The position numbers and the translations under genes are program-made. A DNA stretch of 64,000 nucleotides from Apostichopus japonicus. Taxonomy: Eukaryota; Echinodermata; Holothuroidea; Aspidochirotida; Stichopodidae. This document shows positions 6,742 through 63,000 of this stretch, in pieces (position 1 is the first letter of the stretch; each line of letters opens with the position of its first letter). The notes beneath the pieces are model-generated. The model worked only from the letters and a program-made list of their open reading frames with translations. It was not told the origin of the DNA and searched no databases. The stretch is from NCBI RefSeq assembly GCF_037975245.1, contig NC_092577.1:21884898-21948897 (forward strand), given 5' to 3'.

Positions 6742-6752
6742 GGTTATTACTT

Positions 6753-7092: not shown

Positions 7093-7270
7093 CTGTTGGT
7101 TAAAACAATTTAAAATAACATAATAATAAATATCAAATATCAAATATCAAAACAAATAAGGCAACATTAAACACCATGTATACACCTTTATATTTATGCT
7201 GAGTGCTGTGGAAAATGGAAACACATTTTAAAATTTACATTTACACATTAGCTACAATCAAAGTACATAC

Positions 7271-9555: not shown

Positions 9556-9766
9556 CTTCTTCATCCATTGCATATCCTTCTCGTCAAGGCCGTAATCATA
9601 CAAAATTTATACTCCTGGGGTAAGTCTTTCTTTGCTTAACAAGCACAGAATGGGCAAATTGTTCAGAGCCTTCACTACCATTTTTGCATTGGCCTGATCT
9701 CCTCTTCCGTGGTTTACGAGACGGCCAAGCTTTGGACCATGAGTGGGTTCATTTCTAGCATCAACA
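9556..9766 (-). pseudogene. SET domain C-terminal exon (stop before YDYG)
   Basis: A strong acceptor (ttttttcttgcag) precedes VDARNEPTHGPKLGRLVNHG, the SET pseudoknot segment, and the exon ends with LYDYGLDEKDMQWMKK before a GTACAG donor. The paralogue reads DIQKGEELLYDYG here. In this copy the two codons before ILYDYG are GTA TAA, a premature stop exactly where the family has acidic residues. The NHG triplet (canonical KMT5A has NHS) is shared by both copies in this window. Confidence 0.8.
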
Positions 9767-10357
9767 CTGCAAGAAAAAAGACACCAGTCACAAACACATG
9801 TAGTATACAATATTCCTAATTAATGGTGCTGATAAACACAACCATTTTAATTGCAATATCTACAACAATGTGCAACATAAATATATTGTAAACATTTATG
9901 GTTTATAATATTGATAATCAAAAGAATAAACAAATGCAGTCAATAAATTGTTAGGAAAACTTTCTTTTCAAATGGAAAGCCATCAGATTGTATATTGAAT
10001 ATGAATTATCTGTCTCCTCTCTCAATCATAACTGCAACTTTCAGTGATGGTGAGAAAGTTATTTAATGTGCTTTTGTATGCTTGAGAAAAGAATGGTGGA
10101 AAAAATAGAGCGATCATTCATATACCCTCGAACATTCTCTTGCCTGAGGTCCTAGGCTTTGCAATTAATTTTAAGTCAAGAATAGTCCAGAATTGGATAG
10201 ATTGAGAATCAGACAAGAACTTCTTAGGCTGTAAGTACATACTGTTGTGGATAATGTGTCTCATGTATATAGTGAAGCAAGTAAAGTGCACTATGGCTGT
10301 AAACCATTTTGGGCTGTAAATGGACTGTTTACTTCATGACAATTACATATCGCTTAG

Positions 10358-10511
10358 CACCATTTCTTGTCTTGATATTTGAAGAAATATCTGAATACAC
10401 TGGTGGTATGTTCCTCTCTAGTCTCCCCATCTCTCCCAGAAATGAGTTCACCATGATAGGAGAAAAGGAATTCCCCTTTCTCAACTATGTAGTCTGTATA
10501 GACACCTCTCC
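10358..10511 (-). pseudogene. SET domain N-terminal exon (broken splice donor)
   Basis: The exon starts after attaaag and encodes GRGVYTDYIVEKGEFLFSYH, then RYFFKYQDKKWC. These are the GRG loop and first strands of a KMT5A/PR-Set7-type SET domain, which binds S-adenosylmethionine. It has the same length (154 bases), phase and end (TG of a split Cys codon) as the plus-gene exon at 48651-48804. The donor reads CTAAGC instead of GTAAGC or GTAAGT, so normal splicing to the next SET exon should fail. Confidence 0.8.
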
Positions 10512-10854
10512 CTTTAATAATGAAAACGTATAGAATACATTCCTGCATCACAGCTAATGAAAAGAAAAGTTTAACAGTACAGAATTACATTTTGTGTGAG
10601 GAGATACCTTGCCAGTATAAGGCCAACCACCTGCTTTGTCACTCCACACTAATATGGTAAAAAAGTTGGTAAATTGGATCTATTTCACAACTGAAGTGAA
10701 CCAAATTAACTAAACAATGCTTCTACATTTGAACAAAAGTCTCAAGTATTACAGTAAGCATATGAAAGAGATTTGTTCAGCACAGTAATTGGTTTACAGT
10801 GGTGAAAGTCCATCCATCCATTTTGCAAGAAAGCATGCTGAATATGTTATTCAA

Positions 10855-35731: not shown

Positions 35732-37636
35732 GTAATGAAGTGTAACCAGTGCTAGTTTTGTTTTCTACTTGTTTCATCTGTACCATCAGTGAAGTACGGT
35801 TAAGTAACGGTAGGCTAGATCAGTTGAACGTTACGGTAGTACACTTCAGCCAAGCCAGGCTTCACACGTTGACCGTTGCTCATACCACTAGGTATTAATA
35901 ATGTGATGTTTCAACTTTAACGAATATGAATGTAACAAACGTTAAACAATACATATTGTTTTTCCTTTCACTCAGTGAAATAACAGCCTATGCCGTGGTT
36001 ATGCGTGTAATTGAGGTCTTTGGCGATCAGATCCATCATAGGCTAGGCTACGTAGTTATGGGTCAGCCTAACATACGATTTATATACGACCAATTTTGAT
36101 GCACATAACATAAGGCTCCAAGTTTAATTAATTCGTATATTGACCTCATTATCGAATGAAGTTCTTACTATTATACCTAGTGTAACTGTAGCCGTCAAAA
36201 AAGACCGAGTCTTCTACGGAAGGTTGCTCTTTATTTATTCGTCTTCGTTTCTTTGTTTACCTTCGTGAAAACTACAAATACAAATAATAATGATACAAAC
36301 AACTACAAAGTGCACATTCCATCAAATACATATACAATTGGACAGGAAGAAGCCTTTAGGTCCGGGGTAAACTTATTACATTAAACCATAACATAAATTA
36401 ACGTACCTCTTTGGACTCTTGCAAATATCGGCTTAGTTGGTAGTCTTAAGGTGTGACAAAGATAAATTGATAAATTGTCTTAACAGCATGTATGGTCGGC
36501 CTATCTGTACAAAGACTTTGCAGTATGTGAGGAATATGCCCAGTGAGAGACGTCTCGGCTTCTTACACAAAACAATTTAAAGTAACTATTGTGCGGTACT
36601 GTAATGTTAAGAATGCAAGATTGCACGAGATTGCTGCCGAGCTTACAAATTAAAACTACGAACAGGTTTAAATATCAATGAATATATTTTACGCATAGAA
36701 ATTGTGAATCAACCTTTACATGGTCCCTCAAAATGATACTTTCATTTTTTAACCACGAATCCTGATATTTGATTCACATCACAAATACTATACTACACGT
36801 ATCGTGAATTAAGCTAGTGTCACAATTACTCTTTCACATAACCCAACTATCCATATGTATGTATGTATGTATGTATGTATGAAAAAGTACTAACTACTAG
36901 CGCTAGCCAAATACCTGCAAGTGGGCCTGTGGAAGAACCGAAAAACGACAATGCCAGGTAATAAAACAACGAAGATCTTAAGGTTTCACTCGCATCTTAG
37001 GCTTTAGTCATTAATTAGCTTAGCCTTCCCTTTTATCATTCATCGGCATCGCTGAACTTGCAATACACCGTCACCTTATTATCTAGTATGGTGGTACAGT
37101 AGCTAGGTAGGTTCGAAGTTCGAACACGTAAGAACTGAAGTGCCTCAAATTTAAAACCTTTATTAATAGGTAAATATTGTTGAATTTGCTCAAATAAAAA
37201 AAACCATTAATTGCTTCGTATTTCTAAGTTAAATCAGCCGTCGCTTTGCTTTGACTGGTGAATATATGGGCATTTGTATGAGGTGTTCGAACTTAAAACC
37301 CGTTCGAACTTAGAACCAGTACAGTAGGCCTAGGCCTATGTAGCCTAGTGTAAGTTACAGAGGCCTAGTTACAGTACCATTGTAAGTACGTGCACAATGC
37401 CTGTGGCGAATGACTGTAAATAATGGCAAGCCCAAACGAAACGTACCCTAGCCTTGGCCAAGGTCCTAGGCTAGGACCTTATTGTACTTTATAGTAGTTA
37501 TAGCTACAGCCTTTAAGTTGGAGGCTGTTACTCCATGGACTTCTGGATATAGCCCAAGTTTGTGATACAGTCTAACTGTTAGGGCCTGGGCGATGCCAGT
37601 GAACTTGCCCTTCTCAAAGACGGTCTAAGATAGCTA
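35732..37636. other. Intronic or intergenic sequence
   Basis: No supported exon. Contains an ATGT microsatellite (36855-36881) and many TAGGCCTA and TACTGTA words. Confidence 0.45.
36855..36881. repeat. (ATGT)n microsatellite
   Basis: About six to seven uninterrupted copies of a four-base unit (tatg/atgt). Confidence 0.9.
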
Positions 37637-43990: not shown

Positions 43991-44127
43991 CAAGATTAAA
44001 TATGAATGCAAAATTTTATTTTGCCAACACCTTAAGATAGCATTTCACCAGTGACTGAAAGAAATGGGATAACATGGCATTATTTGAAATAAAACATATA
44101 TGTCTCATTGAAACCTCAATGAATTAA

Positions 44128-44371
44128 GACCGCGTGTTTGGTCTAATGGTAGAGCATCCGCCTCTCACGCGGGAGGCCCGGGATCGATTCCCAAGTTGAG
44201 TCATACCAAAGACTTTAAAAATGGAACCTACTGCCGTTGTGGGTGATGCTCCGCATAAGCAATGGAGTAAGGGAAAACGAGCCAGTGAGCCACAACTGGA
44301 AAAAAGGCCGTGGCCGGCTCGACTTGAACCAATTGGTTGGAAACTGGGCCGTTAAACCTCATCTAACTAAC
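44128..44371 (+). mobile_element. tRNA(Glu-CTC)-like SINE
   Basis: The head reads ggtctaatggtagagcatcc with a B-box-like gggatcgattcccaag and a loop ctctcac that would give anticodon CTC. The body has gagtcataccaaagac, aagcaatggagtaaggg, gccacaactgg and ggccgtggccggctcgac, ending with cctcatctaac. The acceptor stem is not conserved as a tRNA, so this is a SINE, not a tRNA gene. Confidence 0.85.
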
Positions 44372-44764: not shown

Positions 44765-44884
44765 GCACACGGCATTCAGCTAGAAGGAAGAAAAGAGATG
44801 CAAGCCCTGAAACAATAGCAAGACAGGTAGTCACTAGAAACTGTGATGAAAAAAAATTTTCAGTGGGACGCTTCCCTGGCAAAG
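44765..44884 (+). CDS. Basic exon preceding the SET domain
   Basis: Acceptor tatactgtag; encodes TRHSARRKKRDASPETIARQ and ends FSVGRFPGK plus the first base of the Gly codon that joins the next exon to give GKGRGV. The basic cluster could be a nuclear-localisation signal. The first two bases need one base from an upstream exon, so this is not the first exon. Confidence 0.75.
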
Positions 44885-47800
44885 GTACAGTACTGTATGT
44901 CAACTTTCTTTGTTTTGGAAGAATGATCAACTAGCTGTAGGGGATAGGAGGGCATAAAATGGGGAATAAGAAAAGATTTCGAAGACTTTGAAATGCACAT
45001 GATGAGCTGTCAAGTGCCCAGGTTTGAATGGAGAACATATCTGGGCAATTGTTGGTATATTAGCACACAAAGAATACTTGGAAAATCATTCAATTCCTGT
45101 CTAGCCTCTGTAGCCTTAAACTGGCTTGTATTCAGATCAAAACTTGTCATCACATATATATACCTATGTCCAAGCGTTTTGCTGTTCAGCAACTTCAGCT
45201 GCTCCCATAATGCATCCATACATAACAGCTGGAAGCTTGCCCTGGGCATGAAAATGAGTATGTACAGTACAATAAGTACTGCAAATACGAGAGTGCATAA
45301 CAATAGTGGCCAGGGAATTGCTACCTGTCCAAACTACGATATTTGGTGAACCCAGCTGTAAATAAGAATTGTGTGCAATGTACAGTACTTACAGTACAGT
45401 ACATATCACTGTGAGTAACAAGACCACTCAGAGTGACTTGCAGTGTACAGTACAGTATATCCAGAGATAAAATTTAAATGTGACTGCTTCTGTGTCAATC
45501 AAAGTTCTGTGACCAATACAGGCAGATAATCTCAATTTAGCAGTGGTCTGTGTAATTATTTTGGGGTGATGAGTATATGGCTTTAACTCTCATGGGCTTG
45601 ATGAAGAATGTATTTGAAGTGGGCTGTAGACTTCACAGGCAAAACAGCAACAACTACAGTACTGTACAGGCTGTCCCCACCTACATGGCAGTACCACTCT
45701 CGCAGGATTTATCTATTTTTGAGAGAGCTACCGGGGCGAAGTTGAATCCAGAAAAGACAAAGGGCCTTCGTCTTGGTAGCTGGAGATACAGAGACTTACC
45801 ATTCGGTGCGTCGTGGTCGGATCAGAATATCAAAATTAATGGTATATGGTTCGGCTACGATGCACCTGGTGATGTCACCTGGAGCGAGAGGGCTGAGGTA
45901 TTTGAGAGCAGGCTCGAAACCTTTGGCACCCGCTGGCTTTCGATCCTAGGGAAAGTCACCGTAGTTAATCGTTTTGTTTCGCCCATCTTGTGGTACCCGG
46001 GCGCGGTGTATCCAATTCCGCGTCGCGTCCTGGTGCGGTTGGAGAGAGCGATATTTTCATTTATTTGGTCGGGTGGTACAGAGCTTGTCAAAAGGGCGGT
46101 AATGTACCAAAAACTGGAGAAGGGTGGGTTAGGGGTGGTTCATCTGGGAAGTAAGTTAACTTGTTTGTTATTTAAGCAGTTGTTTGTAGCGGTAACTGAC
46201 CCAGGGTTGCCTTGTTCATATTTTCTACGTTTTTGGGGCGGTTTGCACCTGCGTCGATGGGTCCCGGCGCTGTTTAGCAACAGAGAACCGCATAGTAGTA
46301 CTCCAAACAGGGTGGTGCGTGTCATTTGCTCCGCTCTGATTGAGTTGCCCCCTGTTGACCTGTCACAGCCGGCCCTCGTTCACAGTTCGTTGCGGGATAG
46401 GGCCTTGAATGCAATTTTTGTACAGGGACGTCATCCTGTCGAAGTATGGCGTTCGGTGCATTCAAGGCTGAATGGTTGCAGGCTCCGTGACCTTGCATGG
46501 AGAATTGCACACGGTGCCTTGGTGACCAATCTGAAAAGGTATCACTGGCGATTGGGTGATGGACTGTGCCCGAGGACCGGCTGTGACAGCTTAGAGAGTA
46601 CTGCCCATGTTTTTTGGCATTGCCCCTTTGTTTTGAACTTGTGGGAGTGGTTTCAGTCCTGGACCGACCGTTTAACGGGAGACCGTTCATGGTCGGTAGG
46701 ACAGGGTTTTGTTTTGTATGGATTAGATCCTCCAGTTTGTTCCGTTGCTGTGTTGCAGCGTATTATTTATGTTTGTTCTGTTGTAAAAAAACTTATTTGG
46801 AGGAATAGATGTGATGTTGTTTTTAGGGGGAAATTTGCCAGTTGGCAGGCAGTCCTGGAGGCGGTGAAGTCTGACATTCGCCTTCAGGTCGAAGGCGATT
46901 TTCGCCGTTTATCTAGGGCTGCCTTTTTTGGACGGTGGTGTGCTGGGGAAGGGTGTTTTGTTTCGCTGCGTGCTGGTCGTCCTTTTGTAGTTTTTTAATA
47001 TTTCAGTGGGGGGTTGGGCGTTTTGTCTCTGCAGGTCGGTGAGCGTATGTACTTTTTTGGCTCGCTTGACCTGAGGTTCGTTTGTAAGAATGGGATGGTT
47101 TGGTAGTGCCGTTTGGCCGTGACGTTTTGTATCCCGTATGACGGGTCACGTAAAAAGCACATGGCAGTACCACAAAGATACTGTGGTACTGTAATACTGT
47201 ACTGTATATTGTATACAGGTGTACTGCTGTATAGGGCTCGCAGTATGATGAAGCAGTTTTACAGTTTCTCTAAATTTAATTACAGTCATGCACTGACCAC
47301 CCCAAACTACTGTACATCTATCAATGGACAGCCATATAAGGGATTGGTCACAGTACAGTGTACAGTACTTTGACATACACAAAAGAGGCAGTCACATTCA
47401 AGCTGTACCACAAGATTTATGAGTTTCTCTGATTGGTCTGTATGTGAAAATCAGTGAGTTGAACTGTAATGTACTGTACTGTACATTGCATAACATTCCA
47501 TAATTAAAGCAATGTGCACCGTTTTCTTTCAGAAGTGCTGGCAAACTACTGTAGTTGTTATGTGACAGAAATAGCCATGAGGGAATAAAACTCCTGTATG
47601 GGGTGCTTGGGGGAAGAGGGTTTAACAGGGGTTTCATTTTGGGATGATGAGTGTATTGCATTGTGTTGTAAGTTTTGTTATTTAAGTGTACCTCAAGTGT
47701 AAAATTTCAAAAATATCTGTCGCAAAGCTTAAAAAATAAATCCAAATAGTCCAACTCCCATCTTAATAGGACATTCCTAAGCTGAGATAAAATGTTGAAG

Positions 47801-50800
47801 CTAATTCATTAAAATTGTTATGGTATATTGTGTAATAATTTGTGATGTGTAATTTTTCCACTAATCAAATTACCATCTTTGTTTTTCTGTGTTTTTGGGA
47901 AAGTCACTGCACCTTGTGGCAAAATGTGATCACTATCTTTATCTTACTGGGTGACTTGACTATACTGTACAAGCCTCTCCATGTTTACATGCTATAGAAG
48001 AAAACTAAATTGTTTAAGGTTGTATAAATATTTTACTGTAGTTTGAAATGAAACAAAAGGGTCGTTCCATGCCAATTCAGCAAGTGGTTCCAAGGTGACC
48101 ATCTCTGATTTTGAAGATTTTCCCTCATAATGTCACTGCATAGACAAAATGAACACACTGAAATTTTTAAGCCAATACTGTAGAGCAGTTTTGAAGCCTT
48201 GGGATCCAGTGAGTGAGATTCATTTTCCAGCCTCTAAAGTACTGTATTTTCACAATTCCAGACTTAAGGTACACTTAACAGTTTTGACAAACTGAATAAA
48301 AGATATTTAGTCTTTAGTCAGTGGACACATCTCAACAAAAAAACGGATATCAAAGTTCAAGTGGAAATTTCAATTTACAGTATTTGTTTTAACTCAACAT
48401 ACAGGCCTACTTTAAAGCAGGGAAAGTATACTGTTGAAGGAACCGTTGCCATCTCGGTAGACACATTTTGTTGGCATTCCTCTCTGACAACTTACAGTAT
48501 ATTTGAGGAATGTGTTACTGGGATCAAAGTCAATTCAGTACGCACTACCCTATACCTGTAAGTAATAGCAGTATGCAGGTATACCTTAAATTAGGGTTCT
48601 TAATAATAATGTCCTTATAATGAAAATGTGACACTTTGTTTTAATTTTAGGAAGGGGAGTTGTTGCCAATACGTCATTTGAAAAAGGAGACTTCTTAGTC
48701 CATTATGCAGGAACATTAAGAAGTGCTCAGGATGGCAATAAGCTTGAAGAACAAAGTCCATCATGTTACAGATATTTCTTCCAGTATGAAGGCAAAGAAT
48801 GGTGGTAAGTAACATTTTTTTGGTCCCAGATCTGACCTACTGTCTTTTGAATAGAGTGCTGAATTCATTGATCTTACCTGTACTGTACCACAAAATCACC
48901 TGTCCATACAGTATAAAGATCAATATGAGACAGTGAGACAGCATCAAACTTTGGTAAATTGGAATTAAAAATTGCAGGTAGTCACATTGGCAGAAAGACA
49001 TGATACTCTACCAAAACTTAACACATATGGATCAGTGAAAATTATTCATTGGCAGATTTGCAAGAAAACATGCTCTGTCCATTTTGAAAATATTGCACAA
49101 GGAAACGAAATTGAACACATAAATAGTGCAAATTTCATTAAATTTACCACTTGCCCATTTGTACTTTGAGAGAAAATACATTACAATTTCAGAGGCTTCC
49201 TAGACAATAATTTATTAATTTGTTGTAGGCTACTGTATTTGATCATAACCTTTCAGTGCCAAGGGTTTCCTCAGAGTACAGAAAAGTCACATTACTGGGC
49301 AGTGGATTTCCGATATTCCAATAAAATACTAAAACAGTTATTTTCAGTTTTATTCCTGACTTTATTCAGAAAGCATCCTCTTCTCGGTTAAATAGGAAAA
49401 GCACAAAAAGAAAAGTATGAGAGCTGTATTTTACAAAGTGTAACTAGTCCTACTACTCTTCTATTGCTCAAAGTCTCCCTAGCCCAAATCAGCCTTATGT
49501 ATCTCTCGCTCTCTCTCGCTCTCTCTCTCCAAACACATCCTCCTTCCCATCTCTCTATTTTTTGCTCTGCCCAACATTCCAGGGAACCAACTCCCACTTG
49601 AGAGATAACCTGTGACCATATAGACTGGAATGTACATACAGTACTTACTAATCCAGCCAGAATGTGCAAATCCAGCAGCAGGGCAGGAATTAAGCAAGGG
49701 CTCAGGGCGATTAGCCCCTGTAACTTGCAAAATAGCCCCCAAAAGTAGGGTCACAATGGCGATTTTGGCCATATAGTTTGTGCAGGGAAGACCATTTAAA
49801 ACACCACATTCCAGCCAACTAGCCCCAAAAGAGCCCTAGTAAGACAAATGTTAATTCCTGCCCTGTCCAGCAGCCCTCTTGTAGCTGAGAAACACTCAAG
49901 TATCCATCAACATGCCATAGCACCTCCCATTTAGGTCAATACGTCTCCAACAGACTGGAACTTGTGTTTACCAAACTTTTATTTACAGTAGCCTGTAAGG
50001 GGCAACACTTTAATATAGGTTTTGTGACATGGCACCAAAAAGAGCTGTTTCACATGTCAGTTAAAGAATTAAGTCCTCCCATGAAAGACCTATCAGAATT
50101 ATTTCAATATCTCAAAATTTACTGTACATCTTCAAAGTTTGATGGTTTCTGAAGGAACTCATTGCCTATGCAAAAATAATGATGTGGAGTGGTGCAGAGT
50201 GTTAAGATTTCTTTTGTTAACCCTATATAAATTATCTCTTAATTACTTATCAGATAGATTACAGTTTGGTGAGTGATTTCAATATTTCTGAAGGAAAGAA
50301 TTTTAACTTTCATAATAAACCCCTTAGGGGATAACAATGCTACCAGTGTCCTTGAAATTAAGGTTGAAAAAACAAAGGTAGATTTGTTAGATGAGGTTTA
50401 ACGGCCCAGTTTCCAACCAATTGGTTCAAGTCGAGCCGGCCACGGCCTTTTTTCCAGTTGTGGCTCACTGGCTTGTTTTCCCTTACTCCATTGCTTATGC
50501 GGAGCATCACGCACAACGGCAGTAGGTTCCATTTTTAAAGTCTTTGGTATGACTCGACCTGGGAATCGAACCCGGGCCTCCCGCGTGAGAGGCGGATGCT
50601 CTACCACTAGACCAAACACGCGGTCGTAGAACATGAGCCATATAAAGTACTGTATGTCCATCTTTTGATGTCACATATTTGCATACTTAGCTCATGTTTA
50701 TTCACAATACAAGTGTGAAATAGAAATAACCCTGTAAAATGGTCAATGGAATTTAATGGGAATTGCGGCTATTTTTTGGATATAATGCTTTGTACATCAA

Positions 50801-53800
50801 ATATCCAACTATGTAATATTCATGTCACACGACCTTTAAATATGTGATTCAATAGTCAAAACCCTTAAGTGATCTTAGTGTTAAACAGGCTTATTAACAC
50901 ACTATTTAAAGGAACGTGTTTTACACACATTACCTGTATCATGCATTTCTAAGAGTAATAATATAATAAAAAATATTTGAAATATACACCTACTGAACTA
51001 AGTCCTTCTAAACAGGCAGGTCCAAGCTACAGTACTCAGTCCCAAGAAGTGATTTTTGGTTTCTAGTCCTATGCAGTCCTGATGGCATGTGTGTGTACAG
51101 TAGGGTAAACTGGGTAAAAACGCCCATGGGGTAAAAACGCCCGGAAAACTTTTTTCCTCTGCTTGTAAAAAATCATATGATGTTTGATAGAATGGAACAT
51201 AATAAATATTGAGAACAATGTTAGTATATAGTAATGATATAAAGAAAAATATTTATTAACATATTTTAGGGGTATTGAGGAAATTGCAAATGTTGGGTCA
51301 GGACAGTTGAGGAGTCATTTCTGGAAAACATGCAGTGTAAGTCTTTTGTCGTAAATTCATTGAAACCTCAACATTTGCATTTGTCCTTTATGGTTGAGTT
51401 AAAAGTTGGAATTCCTGGTGTATATATATTACATTTTGAATTTATGTGGACAGTAATTAACATACTGGAAAAAAGTTGGAACGACTGCAGTATGCGGTCA
51501 TTCTATGTCAAATCAACAAATCATTTCAAGTGACATATACAAACAGCAAATGAAAAAGGAGTAAAATCATTTCTAGACCTACTGCAACAATTGAAATCTC
51601 TGAGTGTCCTGTATGTCACAGTGCAAATGACTTGGACCTACAGTATATACCCTGATGTATTCCCAACCATCCATTTTTTATGTTCTGGCACAATATGCAT
51701 TCTTCCCTTTGTACTTTATTTGTAGTATGGATGCTACTGAAGAACCTGCAGAGGGACCATGCCTGGGTCGGCTGGTAAATCATGGGACCAGGCGTGAATT
51801 GAATGCAAAGATGAAGGTTATAACTGTCAATCATACTCCTGCTTTGTGCCTTTTTGCCGTACGAGACATTCAGAAAGGTGAAGAACTCCTATACGACTAT
51901 GGCATAAAGGAGTTACCATGGAAAAGTGACAAAAAGGTGAATTTTTAACAGTCATTTAACACACCTACAGCACCATCAGAGCATTAAAAAAAGAAAAAAA
52001 AATGTCAGTGAAATGTACTGTTGTACAGCTACAAGTTTAAAAGGCTTTTGTCAAAGTGGTGGGCAATTAGGTCTGCTCAAAGACTACAGTAAAGTGTTCT
52101 TGTTGTTGTTTCTGCTGCTGTAGCTCTGCTGAACCTACATGTACACGTACATCACCAGTTGTACTTTGTAAAAAAATAGACAAGAGGTGTTAAAGAAACT
52201 GCACACTTCTGGCAGGAAAAGACCTGAGACACAAGTTGTGAAAAGAAAAGATCCTTGACATGATTGAACAAGATTTTTTTTTGTAACAGCAACAACAGGA
52301 GTAAACCATCATGATTCTCAGTAGAGTGACTTCTATAATGCACTGTACTGAGCAGTATGAAAGGAGTAAAACAGTTGGAAAAGCCTCGGAAATTTTTACA
52401 AATTTCATGCTTATTACTTATTGTAGTAATGAAGGCAGTTCAGTATTAAAAACAGGTTCTGTAGGGATATGGACATCCTGTACAAGTATGCTATTATACT
52501 GTATTCAGTGACATGAGACATGAACCACATTGGTTTGTGCCAGTCTGTAATCATGTTTTGAGACCTTACAACAATCAAAATGATGGCAAATAGCAAGAAA
52601 GTTAAAGCTTCTTTGTCCATCTTCTGTGCCTTTTCTAGATCAAACCCCTATGCCAAGACATTCAAAAGGACACACCAGCCAATAAATTGGACAGCTTCAA
52701 CTTAGAAGATATGATTCCTCCCAGCAATACAGAGGGTGTTGCTGAACAGAGACCATCAGATTCAATGGCATTGGAAAGGAAAAAAGGCACAGGTGACGGG
52801 AACAGTTGTGAAGAACAAGAGGCTGAAAATGAACCAGTGGAGCTTAGGAATGATGGACAAGACAAAATGGAGGAAGAACCACCTACAGGAAGGTTGAGGA
52901 ATGATGAAAGAGAATTGAGGTCACAAACAGAATGCCAAGATTCACTCAACGATACACTGCCAGCTAATGGGGATTGTTCCAGCTTAGAACATACAACTCC
53001 TTCGCATGATAAAAGATCGGTTGTAGAAGGGAAACAAGCAGATTTACTGGTCCTCAGACTACCAAAAGTTTCAGGTGAAAGGAGCAGTTGTGAAGAACAA
53101 GAGTCTGCAAATGAACCAATAGAACTTAGGAGTTATGTTGGAAATGAAGAAAAGGAGGAAGAACCATTCCCTAGCCGCTTGAAAATGAAAGAAAGTGAAT
53201 TGAGGTCACATACAGAATGCCAAGATTCACTGAAGGACACACTGCCAGCTAATGCAGATTGTTCCAGCTTAGGAAATATGACACCTCTGCATGATAAAAG
53301 ATCGGTTGTAGAAGGGAAACAAGCAGATTTAATGGTCCTCAAACCACCAGAAGATTCAGGTGAAGGGAGCAGTTGTGAAGAACAATTAGAGTCTGAAAAT
53401 GAACCAATAGAGCTTAGGAGTGATGTCGGAAATGAAGAAAAGGACGAAGAAAAATTCCCTAGCAGCTTCAAGATAAAAGAAAGAGAATTGAGGTCACAGA
53501 CAGAATGCCAAGATTCACTCAAGGACACACTACCAGCTAATGCAGATTGTTCCAGCTTGGGAAATATGACACCTCTGCATGATAAAAGATCGGTTGTAGA
53601 AGGGAAACAAGTAGATGTAATGGTCCTCAAACCACCAGAAGATTCAGGGAAAGGGAGCAGTAGTGAAACACAAAGTGAGCCAGAAGAGGTTCTTAGGAGA
53701 GTTGGTGATGTAAGTGAAGAAAAAGAGATGGAATCATTCATACACAGCATGAGAATTGAAGGAGAGTTGGGGAACCAGACAGAAAGCCAGGGGTTACCTG

Positions 53801-56800
53801 AGGACACACAGTTTCATCAAATGGACTGCTTTGACCCAGAAAATGTAATGCCTAGTGATGAAGAGGATAGTTCATTAAATAGCCAAGGGTATTTGATGCT
53901 CCTTGATATATCCAAAGGTACTGATGAGGATGTCAGCAGTGAAGAAGAAAATTTTAAATTTGCACTTATCCAGGGTGAGGGAAATTGTGACACAACAGGA
54001 AAAACAACAAAAGAAGGAGATGAACAATCCACCATCAGCAGCTCTGAATCTTTCTGTGCACCCCAGTTTGGGAGGAATTGTGACAAAACAAGAAAAAAAA
54101 CAAAAGATGAACAATCCACCACCAGTAGCTCTGATAGTGAAGAAGATCCTTCATATGCACCACACAGTGATGTTGAATCTGATGGTAGTCAAGAAGATCC
54201 TTCCTATGCACCACACAGCGATGTTGAATCTGATGGTAGTCAAGAGTTTCCCTTTTATAATAAAAAGCCAAATTCTCCTTGTCCTGTAACATCCACAAGT
54301 GAAGATACTAAGCCTACAAACCAACCCTCTACATCATCGTACAAGAAACCCTACCGGCTTTGCATCTTTTGTGACAGCATGAAATCCAAACTGTCTGAGC
54401 ACATTGCAAAGCAACATCACAATATTGACAGGGTTGCTTTAGCCCTTAAACTTGCCACAAGGGAAAAAGAGATTTAAGATTTAAGAAAGAAGGTATTCTG
54501 AAGTTTAACAAGCATCAGGCAAAGTGTTCTAAACCTGCATACCACAGGGAGAGGTCTTCAGTCATTGACAACTTGGTAATGTGCAACATCTGCTCAGGAT
54601 TCTATGCCAAAAGATATATCAGAAGACACCTTGAATTTTGTCAGAGTCAGTCAGAAGGTTGTTCTGCATCACTGCCCATCCCTGTCCATCTACTAGCCAA
54701 TGAGGAAATTTGCAGTGAAAGTTTCATGGAAAATGTTCTGAATAGATTCCGTCCTGATGAAGTGGGAACCCTATGCACGAAGGATCCAGTGGTATTGATG
54801 ATCGGAAAGAGACTCTGGGAAAAGCAAAAGCGGAAAATGGATAAGAAGACTGAAGTGCGACGTTCAGTTATGACTGACATGAGACGTCTTTCTGCTCTCT
54901 ATCTAGAAATGAAAACTACTGAAAAAGTGTTGGGCGAATTTCCTTGTAAGAATGGGGATGCAGGTGATATTTTCAAGAGAAACAACTTCAGACACTTAGA
55001 AGAAGCCATTTCATCTTTAACGACTTCAGAATCTAGCAGTGGTAGCGACCTAAAAGCTGGATTGAAGCTCGGAATTTATTACCTCCTGAAATCTGCTGCC
55101 AAAATCTCATTGATGACCAAGATAACCTTGCAGAAGATGTCGATAAATTGGTCCAGGTATTAGAGTTAAGTAACAATTTCCTGTTTGGAGATGCCACGTA
55201 CAAAATCAACCAGCAGAGGCAAGTGAAGTTGAGGAAACCAGATGTATTACCCTTGGAAAGTGATGTGAAAAAACTGAGGGACTACACTGTTACAAGAATG
55301 CACGAGATCACTTCTGATGAACTGGAAGTCTGGGACACCCACAGATTTGTAGAGTTACGAGACCTGGTAGTATGTCGCCTCGCATTATTTAATGCTCGAA
55401 GAGGGGGGGAACCTTCTAGGTTACTAATCAGAGAGTGGACTGATGCTGAAAAAGGCGTCTGGCTGGACAAACAGCAATTGGAAAATCTTCATCCTCTTGA
55501 CAAGGCATTAGCAGATACCCTGAAAATAGCTTATCAGAGTGGAAAGGGCAATAAACACCTTGTTCCAATTCTTTTTCCCCCTGACACAGTTGAAGCGATG
55601 AAGAAATAAGAAGAAATGCAACAGTTGATGACACAAATCCCTTTGTATTTGCAAGTATTAACCAATCAGATAACCATGTGTCAGGATGGCATGCTGTAAG
55701 CAGTGTCTGTGACAATGTCACCCTCACAAACAAAAGTATAGTTACAGCAACGAAGAACCGACATAGAGTTAGCACTATGTTTGCTTTAATGGATGTTCCT
55801 GAAAACGACAGACAGTTTATTTACAAACATCTTGGACATTCAGAAGAGACCAACAAAAATATATATCAGACGCCACTTGCTCTGAAAGAACTGACGGTAG
55901 TGGGCAGTCGACTCCAGACAATTGATGAAGGTAGGAGACTGCACTGTTAGTTTCTCCTTTTCACATTTGTGATTTAAAGCCTTTGGAAATACTCACATAC
56001 TTTGTATTTAGATTTGCAAACAATTAATGGTGTAAAACATTATATGGCCCAGCATAGTTTTTAACCTTATTTCCATTTGTGGATTCAGAAATTCTGTCAC
56101 ATTTGAAAAACTAGTCAATTCTGCTCAATTGCATAGAGCAGCAGTAACACATTGAGTTGAGCATTCATGATATTTCCTGTACTGTACGATAACTTATATT
56201 TTCTTCCACACCAGGTGAAGAAGCTCTTGCCTGCACTCCTGGGACAAGCTATGCAAACACAGGTGAGCATTCTTTTTCATTGTCTTTTTTATGAAACAAG
56301 CTGTAGTCCTGTAGGTTCACAGCTATTGCTTGGTTGTCTTCACTCCACATCATTAAGCTAGAGAGCTTCTCAAAGGGTTGCAATTTCTAAAATGACAGGT
56401 CTCAAATATTTCAAGTAACTGCTTCATCCTTTATTTTAACTTTACCACTGACAAAGACAAAGACACAGAGCCAGGCAACGGAGGAGATAATAGCTTTCTT
56501 ATTTTTCATAGAACTTTTGGTGGTACTAAACTTCTAATAGGTCTGTCTGATAATGTTTTTGGAGTTCATGCAAGCATATATTTGACCTACTTCATTTTAT
56601 GTGGAATTTTGCTACAAGAAGTATTTTGTGATTCTTTTGTTTTCTGTTTTAGAGCCTCCTTTAGAGCTAACTTCGAAAGGTGGGAACGGAATAACTGCCA
56701 TGGAAGAAGAAGAAGAAGAAGAAGAAGAAGGAGAAGAAGAAGAAGTAGAAGAAGCCTGTTGTGTAAATAGCGAAGAAGGTAATAGACATACTTGAATTTA

Positions 56801-59800
56801 TTGAAATGTGAATATCATACACTAGACATGGCACATTTGTACACACATTCCTTGTAGAGCTAGAATATCACATCCCCCATGCTGTAATTATTGAACTTGT
56901 GTCACTTTCTACGTAACCTTACAATGTTTACTTCTTTTTTCAGATTTGCCAGGTGAGCTACCAGAGAATTACAGCACAAAAGAACAGTTGTACAAGCCTG
57001 GTAGGTACTAGCTTTTAAATGCATTTGACATTTACAGTTTTGCTACTTTGATTTATTTTGTAGCTTACTATTCTATCAATGCACTTGTCAATTGTAACCA
57101 CGGCCCCCATACTAGGGCCATAGCGGGGCTGTTGCAACATATTTGCCGGGGATGTGCGGTGTAGTTTGTCCCTTCTATGCAGTAGCGTCAATCTTTACTC
57201 GAATGTGGGGGGGGGGGGGGGACATGGCCACTTCCGTCAAAAATTGACTGTCTAAAAATCTAAAGTCAATGGGTGTAATTTCCAAAAGGTGGGAGGACCT
57301 GTCCCCCAGTCCCCCTAGGATTGACACCCATGCTTCTATGACGGGAATGTGATGGGAATTTTAGCCAGGATGTGTATCGAAAAAAATGGGCTGGGATAGT
57401 TACCCTGGGATTTGCATGAAAAATAGCCGGGTAAATAGCAAGGATCTGGCGGAGGCTTAGCACTGTATGTAGCTACCAATGATATACTAGGTCTACACGA
57501 ACCTTCAGTCTACTGAACCTTTGATCTAATGGGATTGCCCCATCTCCAAAGATCTGTGTAAAATACTGATTTTAATTGGCATATGAGATGACACTTTGTT
57601 TATTTTTTTTTCAATAGCCCTGAAAACTTCTTGCATTCTCTTAAAATAGGGAATGATATATATAGCAACTTTCTTACATCAGATGTTTCACTACAAAACA
57701 ATTTTACATACTAGTGCATACAGATTACAGATGTAGATGACTGAATATAAGCGAACAAACAAATATGTAAAGTATAAATAGGTGCTCTGTTACATGCACG
57801 CCCTGGAGCTCACCAGTGATTAAAATTATTTGTCAAAAAATTGATTCTCAACCTTTCAAGATATTGCACATGAAAAATCCGTAGGATCCTACAGAAGGAG
57901 ATAACCTTTTTAAAGTGCAACCGAAGCAAGGTAGGATTTAAAATGGCATGTTTCCAACGACTGTGCGGCTTTTTGGTAGGTTGTTAATATTATCTAGGCT
58001 ACATCAGCCTATACTTGTTCCAGTTTTATACGATATTTCGCCTGGAGTGAATAGCTTCATGCAATCACAGCTTGCGTGGGGATGTCTGCGCTTGGCCTGC
58101 ATTCACATACACATACATGAGTACGTAGAAGTATGCTTTGTCAAGCAGATTGCATAGACAACAAATATTCAGCATACTCGGTCTACTACAGCCAGGAATA
58201 TACCGGTCATTGCATTAAAGTTCTTGGGGATGTGCAGTTAAAAAATGCCCTGTCCTACTGGGACCTTATTCAGTTGTAGCGGGGAAGGAAACACACTTGT
58301 TACATTTCTGTAAATCACATCCCGGCCTAAGTCCCCGTAATGTCTGGATACGGGGGGTGCATGACTCTTGTTGCTTTATACCCCCTTCATTCACTTTGTA
58401 TGCTTTTAGCATGTCTTTTTTCTTTGTAGCTCGCAAGTATTGCAAGTGGACACCGAAGCAGACGGCAATTGTGCGAGATTATTTCAAAGACTACTTTCAT
58501 GGCAGAGCTGAGAAGAAACTTCCAGGTGGGCTATTTTTTTTCTTTCGTATGAAGCTACTTGTCTGGTCATATATCTGACAACTAAGAACCTTCCTCCACT
58601 CCAGATACTGTCAAACCTACATTTATGGTGACCTTCAGCTGACTTTTGTATTTAATCAGTTGGGTTTAAACTTTATCAAAATATTTTGAAATACGATTAT
58701 TCCCACCATTGCAACTCTCCAGTTTGTTTTACTCTACATTTACAGAACATGCATCTGATCATAGCTGGTATTACATTGTTATAAACCTTTCATACCTAGT
58801 TTGGCCATTAAAGTGGATATGCTGTAAAAGTGTTTTAGTGTACATGACCATCATAATCATGGAAACTGCTTCACATTCTTTTCGGTTTTCCCAGAGGGAA
58901 ACTTAGGAGCCAACCTTGCACAAACTTGAGAGGGACCGCGGATTGCAAAGTCGGAAATGACTACAGTAGCACACAGATTACAATGTACACAAGTTACACA
59001 ACTACTGCCAGTATTGATGAATGAGTCAGCACTGCTCCATATACATCATTTTCTGTAATAAAAGCCAAGGACATAGTTGAACCATAACCTTCATAGCAGG
59101 TGTCAAATATACCTTATTGGGGTTGGACGTAGACATTCTAAGAAGTGAAGCCAATTTAAGTGCAGAGTAATACATGTCAGTCGAGCAGGCAAATTGTGCT
59201 ATAATATTACAGGGTCATTGAATGCTATAAAACTTGCAAAGTCGGAAATGACTACCAAATGCATTGCCATTATTACAGGCAATTACTGTGTGGTATTATT
59301 TGTAAAGCATAAAATGGTAGATATACTGTAAGTGGAAGACGATGGCAGTATTAGTTTTCAGCCGGTCGCTCACCGACTGCTTCGATTTCATGTCTGCAAG
59401 CAGTTACTACGTAATATCATGGAGTGTGCCCTGCTTTTTAGTGCAAGCAAATACTGTCAAGTGAATCATGCTTCTATGTCAAGTTTTATTCTTGTCAAAT
59501 GTCGTACAGAATAGCTTGAAGGAGAACTTCTTGGATTATTTGCATGAAAAATTGTCACAGGTGAAAAAGGTGGCTTCATAGAAAACTTGTGGCAGTAGTT
59601 CTGTGAAGAAAATAGAGGGAACAAAGCTCTCAATCGATACCCTTTACCACCTATGACCTACTTACTTGTACACCTCAACGTGTAGGCCAGCTAGAAACAA
59701 GATTAAAAATTGTCAAAAGAGTAACATGGCAGCTACATGTAGTTTTTGTTAAGACCAAGTTTCTGACAAGTTTTCAACAGTACACCCTTTTGGGAAACAC

Positions 59801-60009
59801 CTCATACTGTAGATTGATTCTACCAGTTAAACACATGAAACGTAGCTCTCTTTGTGCATGTTATTTAAACAGGTCGAAATGACGTCCTAGCATTCCTCAA
59901 GGTCCATGACAACTTCGGGCATGACTGGAAGACTATCAAAACAAAAGTTATGAACGAAGTTAACAAGCTACAGAAGATGTCAAAGCAAAGAGAAAAGGGC
60001 TGGCAGTGA
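44765..60009 (+). CDS. SET methyltransferase - zinc finger - tyrosine recombinase - Myb/SANT gene
   Basis: Nine exons with AG/GT borders: 44765-44884, 48651-48804, 51726-51946, 52639-55930, 56215-56262, 56653-56778, 56944-57000, 58430-58525 and 59873-60009, with a stop at 60007-60009. All phases match. They encode a basic segment, a KMT5A-like SET domain (GRGV, GRLVNHG, YDYG), an acidic linker of repeats, two zinc fingers, a Crypton-type tyrosine-recombinase domain (Arg, Arg, His, Tyr motifs kept), a Glu-rich stretch and a Myb/SANT-like C-terminus. A SET domain of this class methylates lysine, usually on histones; the recombinase fold binds DNA and may cut it. It is probably nuclear. Three one-base deficits in the big exon break the frame. 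The start may be the exon at 35659. Activity is not shown. Confidence 0.8.
44885..45697. other. Intron sequence before the LINE insertion
   Basis: Contains many TACAGTAC words and no supported exon. The last 15 bases (45683-45697) are the left target duplication of the LINE. Confidence 0.5.
45698..47158 (+). mobile_element. 5'-truncated L1/Tx1-like LINE in the intron of the SET/recombinase gene
   Basis: Carries the ORF2 segment after the YADD motif (starting LSQDLSIFERATGAKLNPEK) as a single open frame to 46998, with the C-terminal CCHC-like cluster, then the 3' UTR ending GGGTCACGTAAAAAGC. A perfect 15-base target duplication, acatggcagtaccac, lies at 45683-45697 and 47159-47173. The open frame begins in host sequence, so the predicted N-terminus is an artefact. 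The intact tail and perfect duplication suggest a recent insertion. Confidence 0.95.
47174..48650. other. Intron sequence after the LINE insertion
   Basis: AT-rich with frequent TACTGTAC words. No exon with both splice signals found. Confidence 0.45.
48651..48804 (+). CDS. SET domain N-terminal exon
   Basis: Acceptor gttttaattttag. Encodes (G)RGVVANTSFEKGDFLVHYAG and, after a variable loop, YRYFFQYEGKEW with TG of a split Cys codon before a GTAAGT donor. GKGRGV is the cofactor-binding loop, and the F-x-KGDF-x-V-x-Y-x-G pattern is that of KMT5A/PR-Set7-like SET domains. Confidence 0.85.
48805..49678. other. Intron sequence
   Basis: No exon seen. A CT-rich low-complexity tract lies at 49500-49535. 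Confidence 0.45.
49679..49865. mobile_element. Non-autonomous hAT element, 187 bp
   Basis: Perfect 15-base inverted ends, cagggcaggaattaa and ttaattcctgccctg, with a perfect 8-base target duplication, tccagcag, at 49671-49678 and 49866-49873. Confidence 0.95.
50386..50625 (-). mobile_element. tRNA(Glu-CTC)-like SINE, minus strand
   Basis: Same family as 44128-44371 in inverse orientation. The B-box-like sequence gggttcgattcccagg is closer to the tRNA consensus than in the other copy. It lies in the intron between the two SET exons. Confidence 0.85.
50626..51725. other. Intron sequence
   Basis: A short direct repeat, gggtaaaaacgccc, occurs at about 51113 and 51130. No supported exon. Confidence 0.45.
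51726..51946 (+). CDS. SET domain C-terminal exon
   Basis: Acceptor ctttatttgtag. Completes the split Cys and encodes MDATEEPAEGPCLGRLVNHG, then ALCLFAVRDIQKGEELLYDY and G, and ends at AAG before GTGAAT. NH of the N-H-x motif and the YDYG tyrosine, both near the active site of SET enzymes, are kept. No post-SET cysteines follow, as in KMT5A. Confidence 0.85.
51947..52638. other. Intron sequence
   Basis: No exon or named repeat; the acceptor tgccttttctag ends it. Confidence 0.5.
52639..55930 (+). CDS. Large exon: acidic repeats, two zinc fingers and tyrosine recombinase
   Basis: From the acceptor it reads IKPLCQDIQKDTPANKLDSF. Tandem repeats of about 96 residues (marks ECQDSL, LPAN-DCSSL, DKRSVVEGKQ) run from about 52,780 to 53,710, then Ser/Glu-rich sequence with SYAPHSDVESDGSQ twice. 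Finger 1 is LCIFC...HIAKQHH (54360-54422), finger 2 CNICSGFYAKRYIRRHLEFC (54584-54643). The recombinase has Arg I in FNARRGGEPSRL (55388 on), Arg II in TKNRHRVSTMF (55750 on), His in KHLGHS (55825 on) and Tyr in NIYQ (55858-55869). One-base deficits near 54470, 55085 and 55605 each move the frame the same way; the protein reads through coherently across them. The exon ends GAAG before GTAGGA. Confidence 0.8.
52780..53710 (+). repeat. Coding tandem repeat, unit about 288 bp
   Basis: The DNA marker gttgtagaagggaaacaag recurs at about 53020, 53306 and 53594, with a more diverged fourth unit beyond. The unit encodes about 96 acidic residues with conserved ECQDSL and RSVVEGKQ blocks. Spacing is a multiple of three, so repeat number can change without breaking the frame. 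Confidence 0.85.
56215..56262 (+). CDS. Microexon of the SET/recombinase gene
   Basis: 48 bases, acceptor cttccacaccag, donor GTGAGC, encoding GEEALACTPGTSYANT. It starts and ends in the same phase, so it can be skipped without a frame change. Confidence 0.75.
56653..56778 (+). CDS. Exon with poly-Glu tract
   Basis: Acceptor gttttctgttttag, donor GTAATA. Encodes EPPLELTSKGGNGITAM, a run of Glu with one Gly from a GAA repeat (56704-56755), then ACCVNSEE. The GAA repeat is probably length-variable. Same phase at both ends. Confidence 0.75.
56944..57000 (+). CDS. Small exon of the SET/recombinase gene
   Basis: 57 bases, acceptor acttcttttttcag, donor GTAGGT, encoding DLPGELPENYSTKEQLYKP. Same phase at both ends. 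Confidence 0.75.
57001..58429. other. Intron with a hAT element and a long poly-G tract
   Basis: Holds the hAT element at 57180-57332, which contains a poly-G tract of about 15 bases (57207-57221). Otherwise no exon seen. Confidence 0.5.
57180..57332. mobile_element. Non-autonomous hAT element, 153 bp
   Basis: Ends cagtagcgtcaatc and gattgacacccatg are imperfect inverted repeats (10 of 14), flanked by a perfect 8-base target duplication, cttctatg, at 57172-57179 and 57333-57340. Confidence 0.85.
58430..58525 (+). CDS. Myb/SANT-like exon of the SET/recombinase gene
   Basis: Acceptor ttttttctttgtag, donor GTGGGC. Encodes ARKYCKWTPKQTAIVRDYFK then DYFHGRAEKKLP. The W-T-x-x-Q/E start and helical spacing resemble the first helix of a Myb/SANT-type DNA- or chromatin-binding domain, completed by the last exon. 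Confidence 0.75.
58526..59872. other. Last intron
   Basis: No exon found. The word gcaaagtcggaaatgactac occurs twice (58945 and 59236). Confidence 0.45.
59873..60009 (+). CDS. Terminal exon of the SET/recombinase gene
   Basis: Acceptor ttatttaaacag. Encodes GRNDVLAFLKVHDNFGHDWK, TIKTKVMNEVNKLQK and a basic end, then TGA at 60007-60009. The D-W-K-x-I-K-x-K-V-x-N pattern fits the last helix of a Myb/SANT-like domain. Confidence 0.75.
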
Positions 60010-60439: not shown

Positions 60440-63000
60440 GTCTTTTATCCATTGATGCTGACCAGTAGTAGGATTGATTTGAAATATTCATTGTCAGTCC
60501 TTGAATTGTAAATCTTTTGCTAGCAGGCTTCCTGTGTGTGTTGGTCATTCTCATACAGGTATATTTCCCTTTAAAGTACTTCAGGGGAAATATTTTCAGG
60601 GTATTGGGTATGGGTCATTCTCTTAAGGTGAAATATACATAGGTATACTTCCCTTTAAATTGCTTCAGGGAAAATATATACAGGGTATATTTCCCTCTCT
60701 TTAAGTGTTTCAGGGGAAATATGCAGAGTGTATTCCTCTTAAGGATTAACAAAAGGAACTCTACAGTAACCAATAGGTCAGGGTAGGTTGAATAGTTTGA
60801 AAAGATTTAATTTGACCCCATTAAAGCTAGTTTAACTTTAATTTCCCAACATGTATCCCCTATTGTGCCGAACTTGTTTTAAAACCCAAGAAAAAAGTTT
60901 TAAAGGGGAATACTGTGGGCAGGCACTGGATGCATCACATTAAATTTTTGAACTTTCCAAATGCAAAAGGGCACGATGGTCTACTGAGACCTTGAGTATC
61001 AACAAATGCATGCATGTACAAGAGTGTGTACAGTTTGTAAATGTTCTTTGCGACTGATGTAAAGCTACATTGAGGGTTCTATCAGGGTTGTAGCTAGCCA
61101 AATTTGAGTGCAGGGTAATTGTCTGACCGGTGAAAGCGCCTCACCCTACCCCATGGTTTCTACCCCATTTTTCAGCCATTAATTTATGGAGAAAATTTGG
61201 GGCTAGTTTTAGGTCTTGATAGGCAGATTTGTGGTGGGCGGGGAAACGTGTTTGCCTGGGGTGCCGGGCAGGAATATCGAGTGCTGGGTGCGGCCACCAT
61301 CCACCGTAGCTACAACCCTGGGTTCTATACCTGTAGTCTGAATTTATAAAAAAAAAAGACTAAACTAGTAGAGCGTTGTGTGTTTTTTATGATTTCAGTT
61401 TGTTTTATATCATCATTATATTGTTTTATATTTATCTTTTTATTTTCAAGGTACAGTTTATTTCAAGGGTTACACATTCATTTGACAGATTTAAGTGATT
61501 GGATTGACTTGAAATATTCACTGTAAGGTTGTGAATTATGTATCTTTCTTAAGCAGGCTTCATGTGTGTGCGCTGGTCATTCTCGTAAGGGGAAATATAC
61601 AGGTATATTTCCCTTTAAATTCCTCCAGGGGAATATATACAAGGTATATTTCCCCTTAAGGATTACAGTCAAAGGAAAGTTTAACTGTACAGGATTATTG
61701 ATTCCTTGCAGAGTTGCATGCTCACACATTAGAATCAATGAGGTGTTTACAAAGGAGCTCTAATTGTCTACTTTTTGATAACCTTTGCAGTGGAAGTTTA
61801 TGCCTGCATGTGTATTCTTGTACACCATCAGTATCCCTACAATAACCAAAAGATCAGAGTTGATTGAAGAGATTTAATTGAACCTTTGGTTTCCCAACCT
61901 GTATCCCCTATTGTGCTGAACTTGTTTTAAACACAAGAAGAACATGTAATGGGGAAATATACCCTGGGCAGGCACTGGATGCATCTACTAATTTAAGTAA
62001 TTAATCCGTATTTCATTTGTCAATGTAACCAACAATTGGTTTGGTGGCTGGCTTGTACAAACATGCCAGATTTTATTTGGGCGGATTCATTTTTACATAA
62101 ATTGAGAGACATCTTTTGTTTTTATGCAAAGTTGCTGCATAATATACACAGGTTATATTTCCCTTTAAATTGCTTCAGGGGAAATATATACAGGTATATT
62201 TCCTTTTAAAGTACTTCAGGGGAAATATGTTCAGGGTATATTTCCCCTTAAGGATTACAGTCAAAGGAAAGTTTAACTGTACTAATCTGTATTTCACTTG
62301 CCAATGTAGCGTACAGTTGGTTTAGTGGCTGGTATATATGAACTTGGTAGGTTTTATGTGGGAGGGTTGATTTTTCATAAATTGAGAGACCTCTGTTTTT
62401 CCATAGTTGTTGACCTCTCTAAAATGCACACACATTTAAGTTTCAAAGTTTCCAAAAATACAAAAGGATACCTTGATCTGCTGATGTGATGCCTTGAGTA
62501 TGTGAGTACTGTAGGAATTTGTCGAGAAATACATTCATGTATAAGATTAGGCACAGTTTGAAGGTTTTGTTTGTGACTGCTATGAAGGTACATTGAGGGT
62601 CCTGTACCAAGAGTCTGAATTAAAAGATAAGACTGAAGTAGTATATAATTGCTTGTTTTATTTCAGTTGGTTTTATATCACCATTACAATGATTTATATG
62701 TATCTTTTCATTTGCCAGTTAGTTTCAGCAGTTAGTTGGTAAACATCTATATGAAACATTTTCAGTCATAAGGTTGGTTTAAAATAGTGTCAAACTTTGA
62801 ATTGTGTAACCTCTTAAGTAGACTTCATGTGTGTGTAAGTCATACTTTGAAGGGGAAATATACACGGGTATATTTCCCCTTAAAAGATAGTCCAGGGGAA
62901 ATACATACAAATATATTTCCCCTTAATGTACTTCAGGGGAAAAATACAGCGTATATTTGCCTTTGAAGGGTCACAGTCAAGGGAAGGCTAAACTGTATGA
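60440..63000. repeat. Diverged tandem duplication, unit about 1.0-1.3 kb, with GGGGAAATATA motifs
   Basis: Three related blocks: compare ttcccaacatgtatccccta (60842) with 61890, gttttatatcatcattat (61402) with 62670, and the tgtgtgtgttggtcattctc marker (60534) with 61565. Within each block the motif tcaggggaaatata and its inverse tatatttccccttaa recur in clusters (60556-60730, 61580-61660, 62145-62255, 62850-62960). No coding sequence is seen. Confidence 0.7.
61083..61320. mobile_element. Non-autonomous hAT element, 238 bp
   Basis: Inverted ends cagggttgtagcta and tagctacaaccctg match perfectly over 14 bases, with a perfect 8-base target duplication, ggttctat, at 61075-61082 and 61321-61328. 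The tandem copy at 62588-62620 lacks it and shows the empty site. Confidence 0.95.

Follow-up and report, generated by a model that had tools for sequence, protein, structure and literature searches.

We analyzed a 64,000-nucleotide stretch of the genome of the holothurian Apostichopus japonicus (NC_092577.1, positions 21,884,898 to 21,948,897, forward strand), hereafter called the window. It is part of contig C17 in a genome of 671.6 Mb assembled as 35 contigs. The window contains a gene-like locus in which the exons of a KMT5A-like SET domain are followed by an acidic linker, two zinc-finger-like motifs, a tyrosine recombinase and a Myb/SANT-like tail. Very probably, it represents a degraded copy of a mobile DNA element that encodes a tyrosine recombinase fused to the SET domain. 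The parts of the gene are as follows.

44765 to 44884, plus strand: exon before the SET domain, ending in GKG, with AG/GT borders and an in-frame join to the next exon; no start exon was identified upstream.
48651 to 48804, plus strand: first half of the SET domain (RGVVANTSF...), recognized by the Pfam SET match of the joined exons and by relatives in the genome.
51726 to 51936, plus strand: second half of the SET domain, with GRLVNHG and YDYG, AG/GT borders, an in-frame join, and Pfam SET and PDB matches.
52639 to 54477, plus strand: acidic linker and first zinc-finger-like motif, with a stop at 54475 to 54477; the finger was recognized by eye and aligned to a relative in L095 (E 0.003).
54450 to 55163, plus strand: second zinc-finger-like motif together with the beginning of the recombinase core-binding region; the frame differs from that of the preceding part.
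55046 to 55609, plus strand: recombinase with the first catalytic Arg (NARRGGE) and the hairpin Lys (GKGNKH), in a third frame.
55594 to 55950, plus strand: recombinase with the TxxR box (TKNR), the His of LGHS and the Tyr of NIYQ, in a fourth frame.
56215 to 56262, 56653 to 56778 and 56944 to 57000, plus strand: three small acidic-linker exons, with splice borders, phases counted by hand and no independent support.
58430 to 58525, plus strand: first Myb/SANT-like tail exon, the domain name being a putative label from the first-pass annotation; related to L079, 2071 to 2163 (48% identity, E 2e-5).
59873 to 60009, plus strand: second Myb/SANT-like tail exon, with the stop; related to L079, 4842 to 4937 (E 6e-4), and to L027 (E 2e-5, with an internal stop).

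The three SET exons of the window, all with AG/GT borders, contain the motifs GKGRGV, GRLVNHG and YDYG, and their phases match. When joined, they match the Pfam SET model (7e-19), and their top match in the PDB is KMT5A/SETD8 (5teg, 1.5e-23), the similarity spanning the whole SET domain. The domain is therefore predicted from its sequence to be of the KMT5A type with both NH and YDYG, as the first-pass annotation of this DNA had proposed. The acidic repeat linker described in that annotation likewise was found, as three 288-nt repeats (52807 to 53667). Its two zinc fingers were seen as motifs by eye, but Pfam gave no zinc-finger match. It also had described nine phase-consistent exons. This stood for the SET exons and for the five tail exons, which by hand count agree in phase with one another and with the last recombinase frame, but not for the large exon at 52639 to 55930. 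That exon comprises four overlapping frames with three frame changes, is open throughout apart from these, and carries the catalytic motifs in the last two frames. Because of the three shifts, the window copy as assembled cannot encode one protein. Real decay seems likelier than assembly error, given that the exon has no other interruption and that long uninterrupted relatives occur in this assembly too. The tail exons at 58430 and 59873 have relatives, at 48 to 50% identity, 3' of another recombinase copy.

The genome was searched with the window SET domain and with two pieces of the window recombinase, giving 150, 57 and 64 matches. The best 150 of 280 SET candidates and all recombinase candidates were scored, and every SET count at genome scale given below refers to that best 150. 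Every one of contigs C1 to C23 carried a match in one search or another; 23 chromosomes are reported for sea cucumbers (PMC13228809). After merging, there were 73 recombinase loci and at least 123 loci with a SET match, of which at least one (C20:12732294) is an unrelated, ordinary host-type SET gene. A SET match was present 5' of the recombinase, on the same strand and within 25 kb, at 44 of the 73 loci (at most 7 kb away in 33 and 10 to 20 kb away in 11). At none of the 73 did a SET match, among the best 150 of 280 candidates, lie 3' of the recombinase or on the opposite strand. Contig C17 (37.2 Mb) carries 27 of these best 150 SET matches.

Several relatives carry the fusion in one uninterrupted frame. 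Frames of 1,429 (L005), 1,263 (L006) and 1,022 (L009) codons were read directly, each extending from the second half of the SET domain, across tandem acidic repeats and a pair of finger motifs, as far as the catalytic tyrosine; the L005 frame carries ...VNHGWKTQVNSKMK...YDYG of the second SET half. A fourth fused frame (C9:14168843-14172283, 1,167 codons) was read as two overlapping slices. SET and recombinase matches lie in open frames of equal length at 12 loci, with a stop inside the SET match in one. Since frames of this length are unexpected by chance, the fusion in these copies needs no splice model. It is real in these relatives, independent of splice predictions, and the earlier claim that a SET domain is joined to a tyrosine recombinase is thereby borne out elsewhere in the genome. 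The ratio of nonsynonymous to synonymous substitution rates (dN/dS) in the recombinase or fused frame ranged from 0.08 to 0.57 over the five copy pairs for which it could be computed: 0.48 for E (1,007 codons), 0.11 for H, 0.41 for C1, 0.57 with three differences only, and 0.08 for a distant pair with a dS of 2.5. Among the SET pairs, one yielded 0.38 and two with a single difference each were unusable, as were three recombinase pairs that had reached saturation. The values between copies suggest that the protein is under constraint.

The window holds a second, more decayed SET-recombinase copy.

2578 to 10512, minus strand: SET domain at 10512 to 10354 and 9768 to 9574, and recombinase frames at 3897 to 2578.

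Its recombinase is broken into several frames and was recognized by eye, from its motifs and its likeness to a copy on C15 (L066), rather than among the scored matches. A LINE-like (long interspersed nuclear element) sequence adjoins this copy near 2600.

We next consider what the recombinase is. The motifs NARRGGE, TKNRHR, LGHS and NIYQ were all found in the window, and an alignment (A2) was made of 19 relatives from this genome; from 20 fetched loci, L061, L064 and L071 (decayed or duplicate) and L076 (short frame) were taken out, and L005, L006 and L008 were added. The AlphaFold2 model from these 19 rows had a predicted local distance difference test score (pLDDT) of 85; a first structure from 4 rows had a pLDDT of 59, and the fold search with it was meaningless. 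VIA-align of the 19-row model gave top Z scores of 15.4 for XerH (root mean square deviation 4.3 over 304 residues), 14.2 for an integron recombinase and 12.8 for Cre; its first 48 rows comprised tyrosine recombinases along with topoisomerase IB proteins and two phage regulators sharing that fold. In the Foldseek ranking, Cre, XerA and lambda integrase also came top, but none reached E <= 0.001, which counts against the assignment. The model predicts the core-binding and catalytic domain fold of the tyrosine recombinase superfamily. Of 22 aligned rows, 20 retain the first Arg, 20 the Lys, all 22 the second Arg and 20 the Tyr. A further point against the assignment is that the histidine position of the HxxR box is Thr in 21 of these rows and Ser in 1 (Thr in 18 and Ser in 1 of the 19-row alignment, and Thr in the window too). 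The first-pass annotation had all four catalytic positions in place, and this holds for R, R, H and Y but not for the HxxR histidine. In known enzymes this histidine is said to vary more than the arginines do, a few of them having Tyr or Gln there (PMC4381057), and for that reason recombinase activity is plausible despite the substitution.

Among family models, Phage_integrase matched 5 of the 19 members (best 2.7e-5) and the PHROGs "integrase" 1 of 19 (2.6e-4). By sequence, matches to the PDB were chance-like only, and ncbifam matches were far under the cut-offs. The first-pass annotation had called the enzyme Crypton-type and had suggested a profile search against SET and Crypton models. In the event the SET model matched, but the Crypton-derived DUF3504 model matched none of the 19 members at E <= 1. 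Across the genome, 9 places matched DUF3504 and 16 matched Phage_integrase, and no match of the SET-recombinase family lay within 10 kb of either kind. The Crypton-type label is accordingly unproven. Five places matched both models (C3:22567926, C2:21424342, C7:15778953, C17:3582640 and C14:16124887); these may be true CryptonA-type copies, distinct from the SET-recombinase family. C2H2- or C2HC-like motifs were seen by eye in L005, L006, L007, L008 and L009, where Pfam again gave no zinc-finger match.

The recombinase tree (window plus 19 relatives, with L060, L064, L071 and L076 left out; midpoint root) resolved two clades, each with support of 100/100: type I, with NARRGGE and including the window, and type II, with NRRRxGE and similar motifs. 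Seventeen SET domains could be paired with members of the recombinase family, including distant and less sure pairs (C12 at 20 kb, C9a at 14.5 kb, C6b at 13 kb and C15a at 10 kb). A SET tree (68 columns) separated NH and ND types with support of 95/93. The two trees disagree about the window, and this weighs against reading it as a single element: its SET domain belongs to the NH type, yet the other SET domains of its recombinase clade are of the ND type or none was found. The window "gene" could then be two neighboring remnants, the SET exons of one and the recombinase and tail of another (whose 100/100 clade is ND or without SET), co-oriented by chance. We regard this as unlikely, though it deserves consideration; the order, strand and splice phases suit one gene, the same order recurs at 44 of the 73 loci (best 150 of 280 SET candidates), and exchange of SET modules by recombination accounts for the trees equally well. 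Because the trees place the window differently, SET modules may have been exchanged between lineages, or the window may be a composite of parts of two elements. ND-type SET exons also form a family on C14, C4, C19 and C20, with no recombinase match nearby, and two copies lie about 3.1 kb apart in L094.

Whether the SET domain acts as an enzyme was assessed from its conserved positions. YDYG is present in 14 of the 17 paired domains, and NH in 8, including the window (VNHG). In the other 9 it reads ND, and because of this, catalysis is doubtful in ND-type domains. In addition, at 29 of the 73 recombinase loci none of the best 150 of 280 SET candidates falls within 25 kb. Nor was a SET match seen in the 7 kb preceding the group H recombinase, which is 49 to 54% identical to the two window pieces. 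On account of group H and these 29 loci, the SET domain may be dispensable, not being needed by every lineage. These observations weigh against an enzymatic role, and together the ND residues and the relatives with no SET match would suit a passive SET domain, a nucleosome-binding tether or hitch-hiker with no methyltransferase activity. We rate that as a tentative alternative, well short of even; against it stand the retention of YDYG in most domains, the NH retained in the window and seven others, and the likeness to KMT5A across the entire domain. On balance, we lean toward SET domains that have catalytic activity in some copies at least. A part in target choice or licensing is a weaker suggestion, which we put somewhat below even.

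Evidence for mobility came from subfamily E, whose ends were placed by comparing slices between chromosomes. Probes for the 5' end matched at 8 places and those for the 3' end at 9, the additional one being a 3' end on C15 with no 5' match. The 8 copies with both ends are 17,117 to 18,987 bp long; three lie on C17 and one each on C4, C6, C11, C16 and C19. SET and recombinase matches are present inside every one of them. The 5' end starts with TTTCACATTTAGTGCCTTATGGAGAC after GTATGTATGT, the first dozen or so bases differing in the C19 copy, and the 3' end is GTCTCCATTAGGCCCACAACATGA, followed by GTATGTATG. A loose inverted repeat, GCCTwATGGAGAC, lies close to both ends. In a 601-bp slice at the 5' end, of which about 410 bp belong to the element, GGAGAC/GTCTCC was counted 6 times, and in 1,450 bp at the 3' end 11 times; the counts for 4.5, 7.5 and 5.0 kb of inner sequence were 2, 2 and 0. 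For groups A and H the ends were not reached, since identity continues to or near the edge of the fetched flanks.

Both ends of all 8 complete E copies are adjoined by (TATG)n, and in two C17 copies the 3' tract extends to the end of the fetched sequence. As background, the window and 16 other loci, 175,884 bases in all, contained one tract of (TATG)5 or more. The 5' flanks are alike in C16 and C19, and the 3' flanks in C16, C4 and C19. The C16 flanks proved to be the two halves of a dispersed repeat, which at 6 other places are joined across a (GTAT)n tract with no element; at 5 more places both halves lie at most a few hundred bases apart around a tract, again element-free. Because the host repeat has the tract and no element at these 11 places, the tract can exist without the element and serves as its target. 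The presence of tracts at both ends of every complete copy also would be expected if (TATG)n had grown from the element ends and belonged to the element. The 11 element-free places argue against this, as do the 3' halves of the host repeat, of which the best 40 of 1,208 candidates begin in TATG (a ranking that favors tract-bearing copies), and we consider an element-borne tract very unlikely. Other details are less favorable to the mobile-element reading. When the best 40 of 3,131 candidates for the 5' half were scored in the empty-site search, 24 had no TATG tract after it, and two of the 40 were the C16 and C19 elements themselves. Over the stretches read for C19, its flanks resemble those of C16 (98% over 207 bp and 96% over 456 bp), and these two copies could represent two insertions into two repeat copies or one insertion later duplicated.

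The family is a mobile element and not a domesticated gene, because dispersed copies with fixed ends sit in (TATG)n and the C16 flanks are joined element-free at 11 places. The first-pass annotation had left both origins open, a domesticated Crypton or a mobile element that captured a methyltransferase. The first does not fit the many copies and the broken window copy; the second agrees with the intact fusions, the near-identical dispersed copies and the microsatellite insertions with empty-site counterparts seen in the relatives. A domesticated host gene, in which a Crypton-like recombinase fused to KMT5A serves host chromatin, might be suggested by the conserved SET and recombinase motifs and the multi-exon structure. 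It is nonetheless extremely unlikely in view of the 73 recombinase loci and at least 123 SET-match loci (best 150 of 280), the fixed-end copies in different microsatellites, and the three frame changes of the window copy; such a gene would call for a single copy at a fixed locus with an intact frame.

The mobile-element reading is less direct for the window itself, where the copy is broken and identity to the top recombinase match elsewhere in the genome is about 55%. For these two reasons, its own mobility is presumed from the relatives, and no border of its element could be established within the window. Two features may bear on them.

60560 to 62946, both orientations: cluster of the GGGGAAATATA repeat, holding 19 of the 20 matches in the window (1.2 expected in the whole window).
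36854 to 36881: (TATG)7 microsatellite, the only tract of (TATG)5 or more in the 175,884 bases read outside the flanks of the E copies.

The cluster possibly represents the subterminal repeats of the window element. The microsatellite might, speculatively, be the insertion site bordering the element. The window also contains two long LINE reverse-transcriptase-like frames that are alike by eye (45556 to 46998, plus strand; 22895 to 24493, minus strand), one of which sits in the first intron of the gene. A tRNA-like repeat forms an inverted pair (44125 to 44370 and 50383 to 50628; 246 nt, 97% complementary), one member preceding the first SET exon and the other lying in an intron.

Other kinds of element were considered. 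Besides the gene, the C16 copy had no frame of 120 or more amino acids in the 4.4 kb before it and none of 150 or more in the 5 kb after it. A retroelement of the DIRS/Ngaro type is disfavored, short of full exclusion, since the parts of the E element that were read hold no other large frame; 3.4 kb of the C16 copy was unread, which tempers this. A virus was rejected for the 41-kb tandem unit on C2 with a SET remnant (group F), which has no frame of more than 215 amino acids. Viral genes were not noticed in the parts read, although no search was aimed at them, and a scan of viral contigs with one SET half gave no match. The C2 unit belongs to one of two tandem series of giant units: SET exons recur at an exact spacing of 40,027 bp at C13:9228860-9309422, with three copies, and of 41,028 bp at C2:26931600-26975637, with two (L025 to L029).

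The nearest published behavior is that of the crustacean endogenous nimaviruses (majaniviruses), which have C2H2 tyrosine recombinases, insert into (TAACC)n and are stated to be distinct from Cryptons (PMC10871703). The likeness in description lies in the C2H2-like motif (here seen by eye), the recombinase and the microsatellite insertion; the genomes described there, however, are 278 to 401 kb and use (TAACC)n, whereas the present element is about 17.5 kb, uses (TATG)n and has a SET domain (PMC10871703). The animal Cryptons (CryptonA/I) of Kojima and Jurka, from sea urchin and other animals, are reported to lack both a C-terminal domain and terminal repeats, a tyrosine recombinase being their movement enzyme (PMC3212892). 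A tyrosine recombinase is likewise the only such enzyme seen in the parts read of the present element. They differ in that the DUF3504 model fails on the SET-recombinase family. At the E ends, (TATG)n hides any short direct repeats or target-site duplication. The nearest fusion is SETMAR, one domesticated primate gene joining a SET methyltransferase to a mariner-type transposase; a host SET gene there gained a transposase, whereas here the element carries the fusion in many copies (PMC6326780). No description of a SET-tyrosine recombinase element was found in searches of open-licence literature, judged from titles, abstract openings and selected papers and not covering Repbase.

In the relatives, the fusion lies in one frame, near-identical copies with fixed ends are dispersed, and insertion was into pre-existing (TATG)n; their recombinase fold is predicted by the model. 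From this we propose a mechanism in which the recombinase tyrosine would cut at both element ends, probably by way of a circular intermediate, and strand exchange would take place between the terminal GTATG-like sequence and a TATG microsatellite. The fingers and, in the window's subfamily, the Myb/SANT-like tail may bind the subterminal repeats near the ends. Least certain are the steps assigned to the SET domain, which might dock on nucleosomes and, in copies with an intact active site, methylate a lysine (H4K20 or a non-histone target); such methylation could open donor or target chromatin, evade or delay silencing, or couple movement to the cell cycle. The role of KMT5A, a host enzyme that is not known to be joined to a recombinase, would fit a tie of movement to the cell cycle. 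As a tentative proposal that we hold with less than even confidence, the family may be an undescribed animal tyrosine-recombinase superfamily with its own histone lysine methyltransferase, swapping SET modules and using the modified nucleosome to choose or open TATG targets.

This is a transposon family with a KMT5A-like domain inside its recombinase, in many open frames, and some of the predicted "KMT5A-like" genes in annotations may be transposons; the first-pass annotation mentioned predictions of this kind, with similar tails, in fish. It also offers a microsatellite-targeting recombinase from an animal genome. Host histone methylation often silences transposons. The family makes it possible to test whether a transposon alters chromatin to enable its own movement; if the proposal is true, this would be a transposon that writes a chromatin mark it requires.

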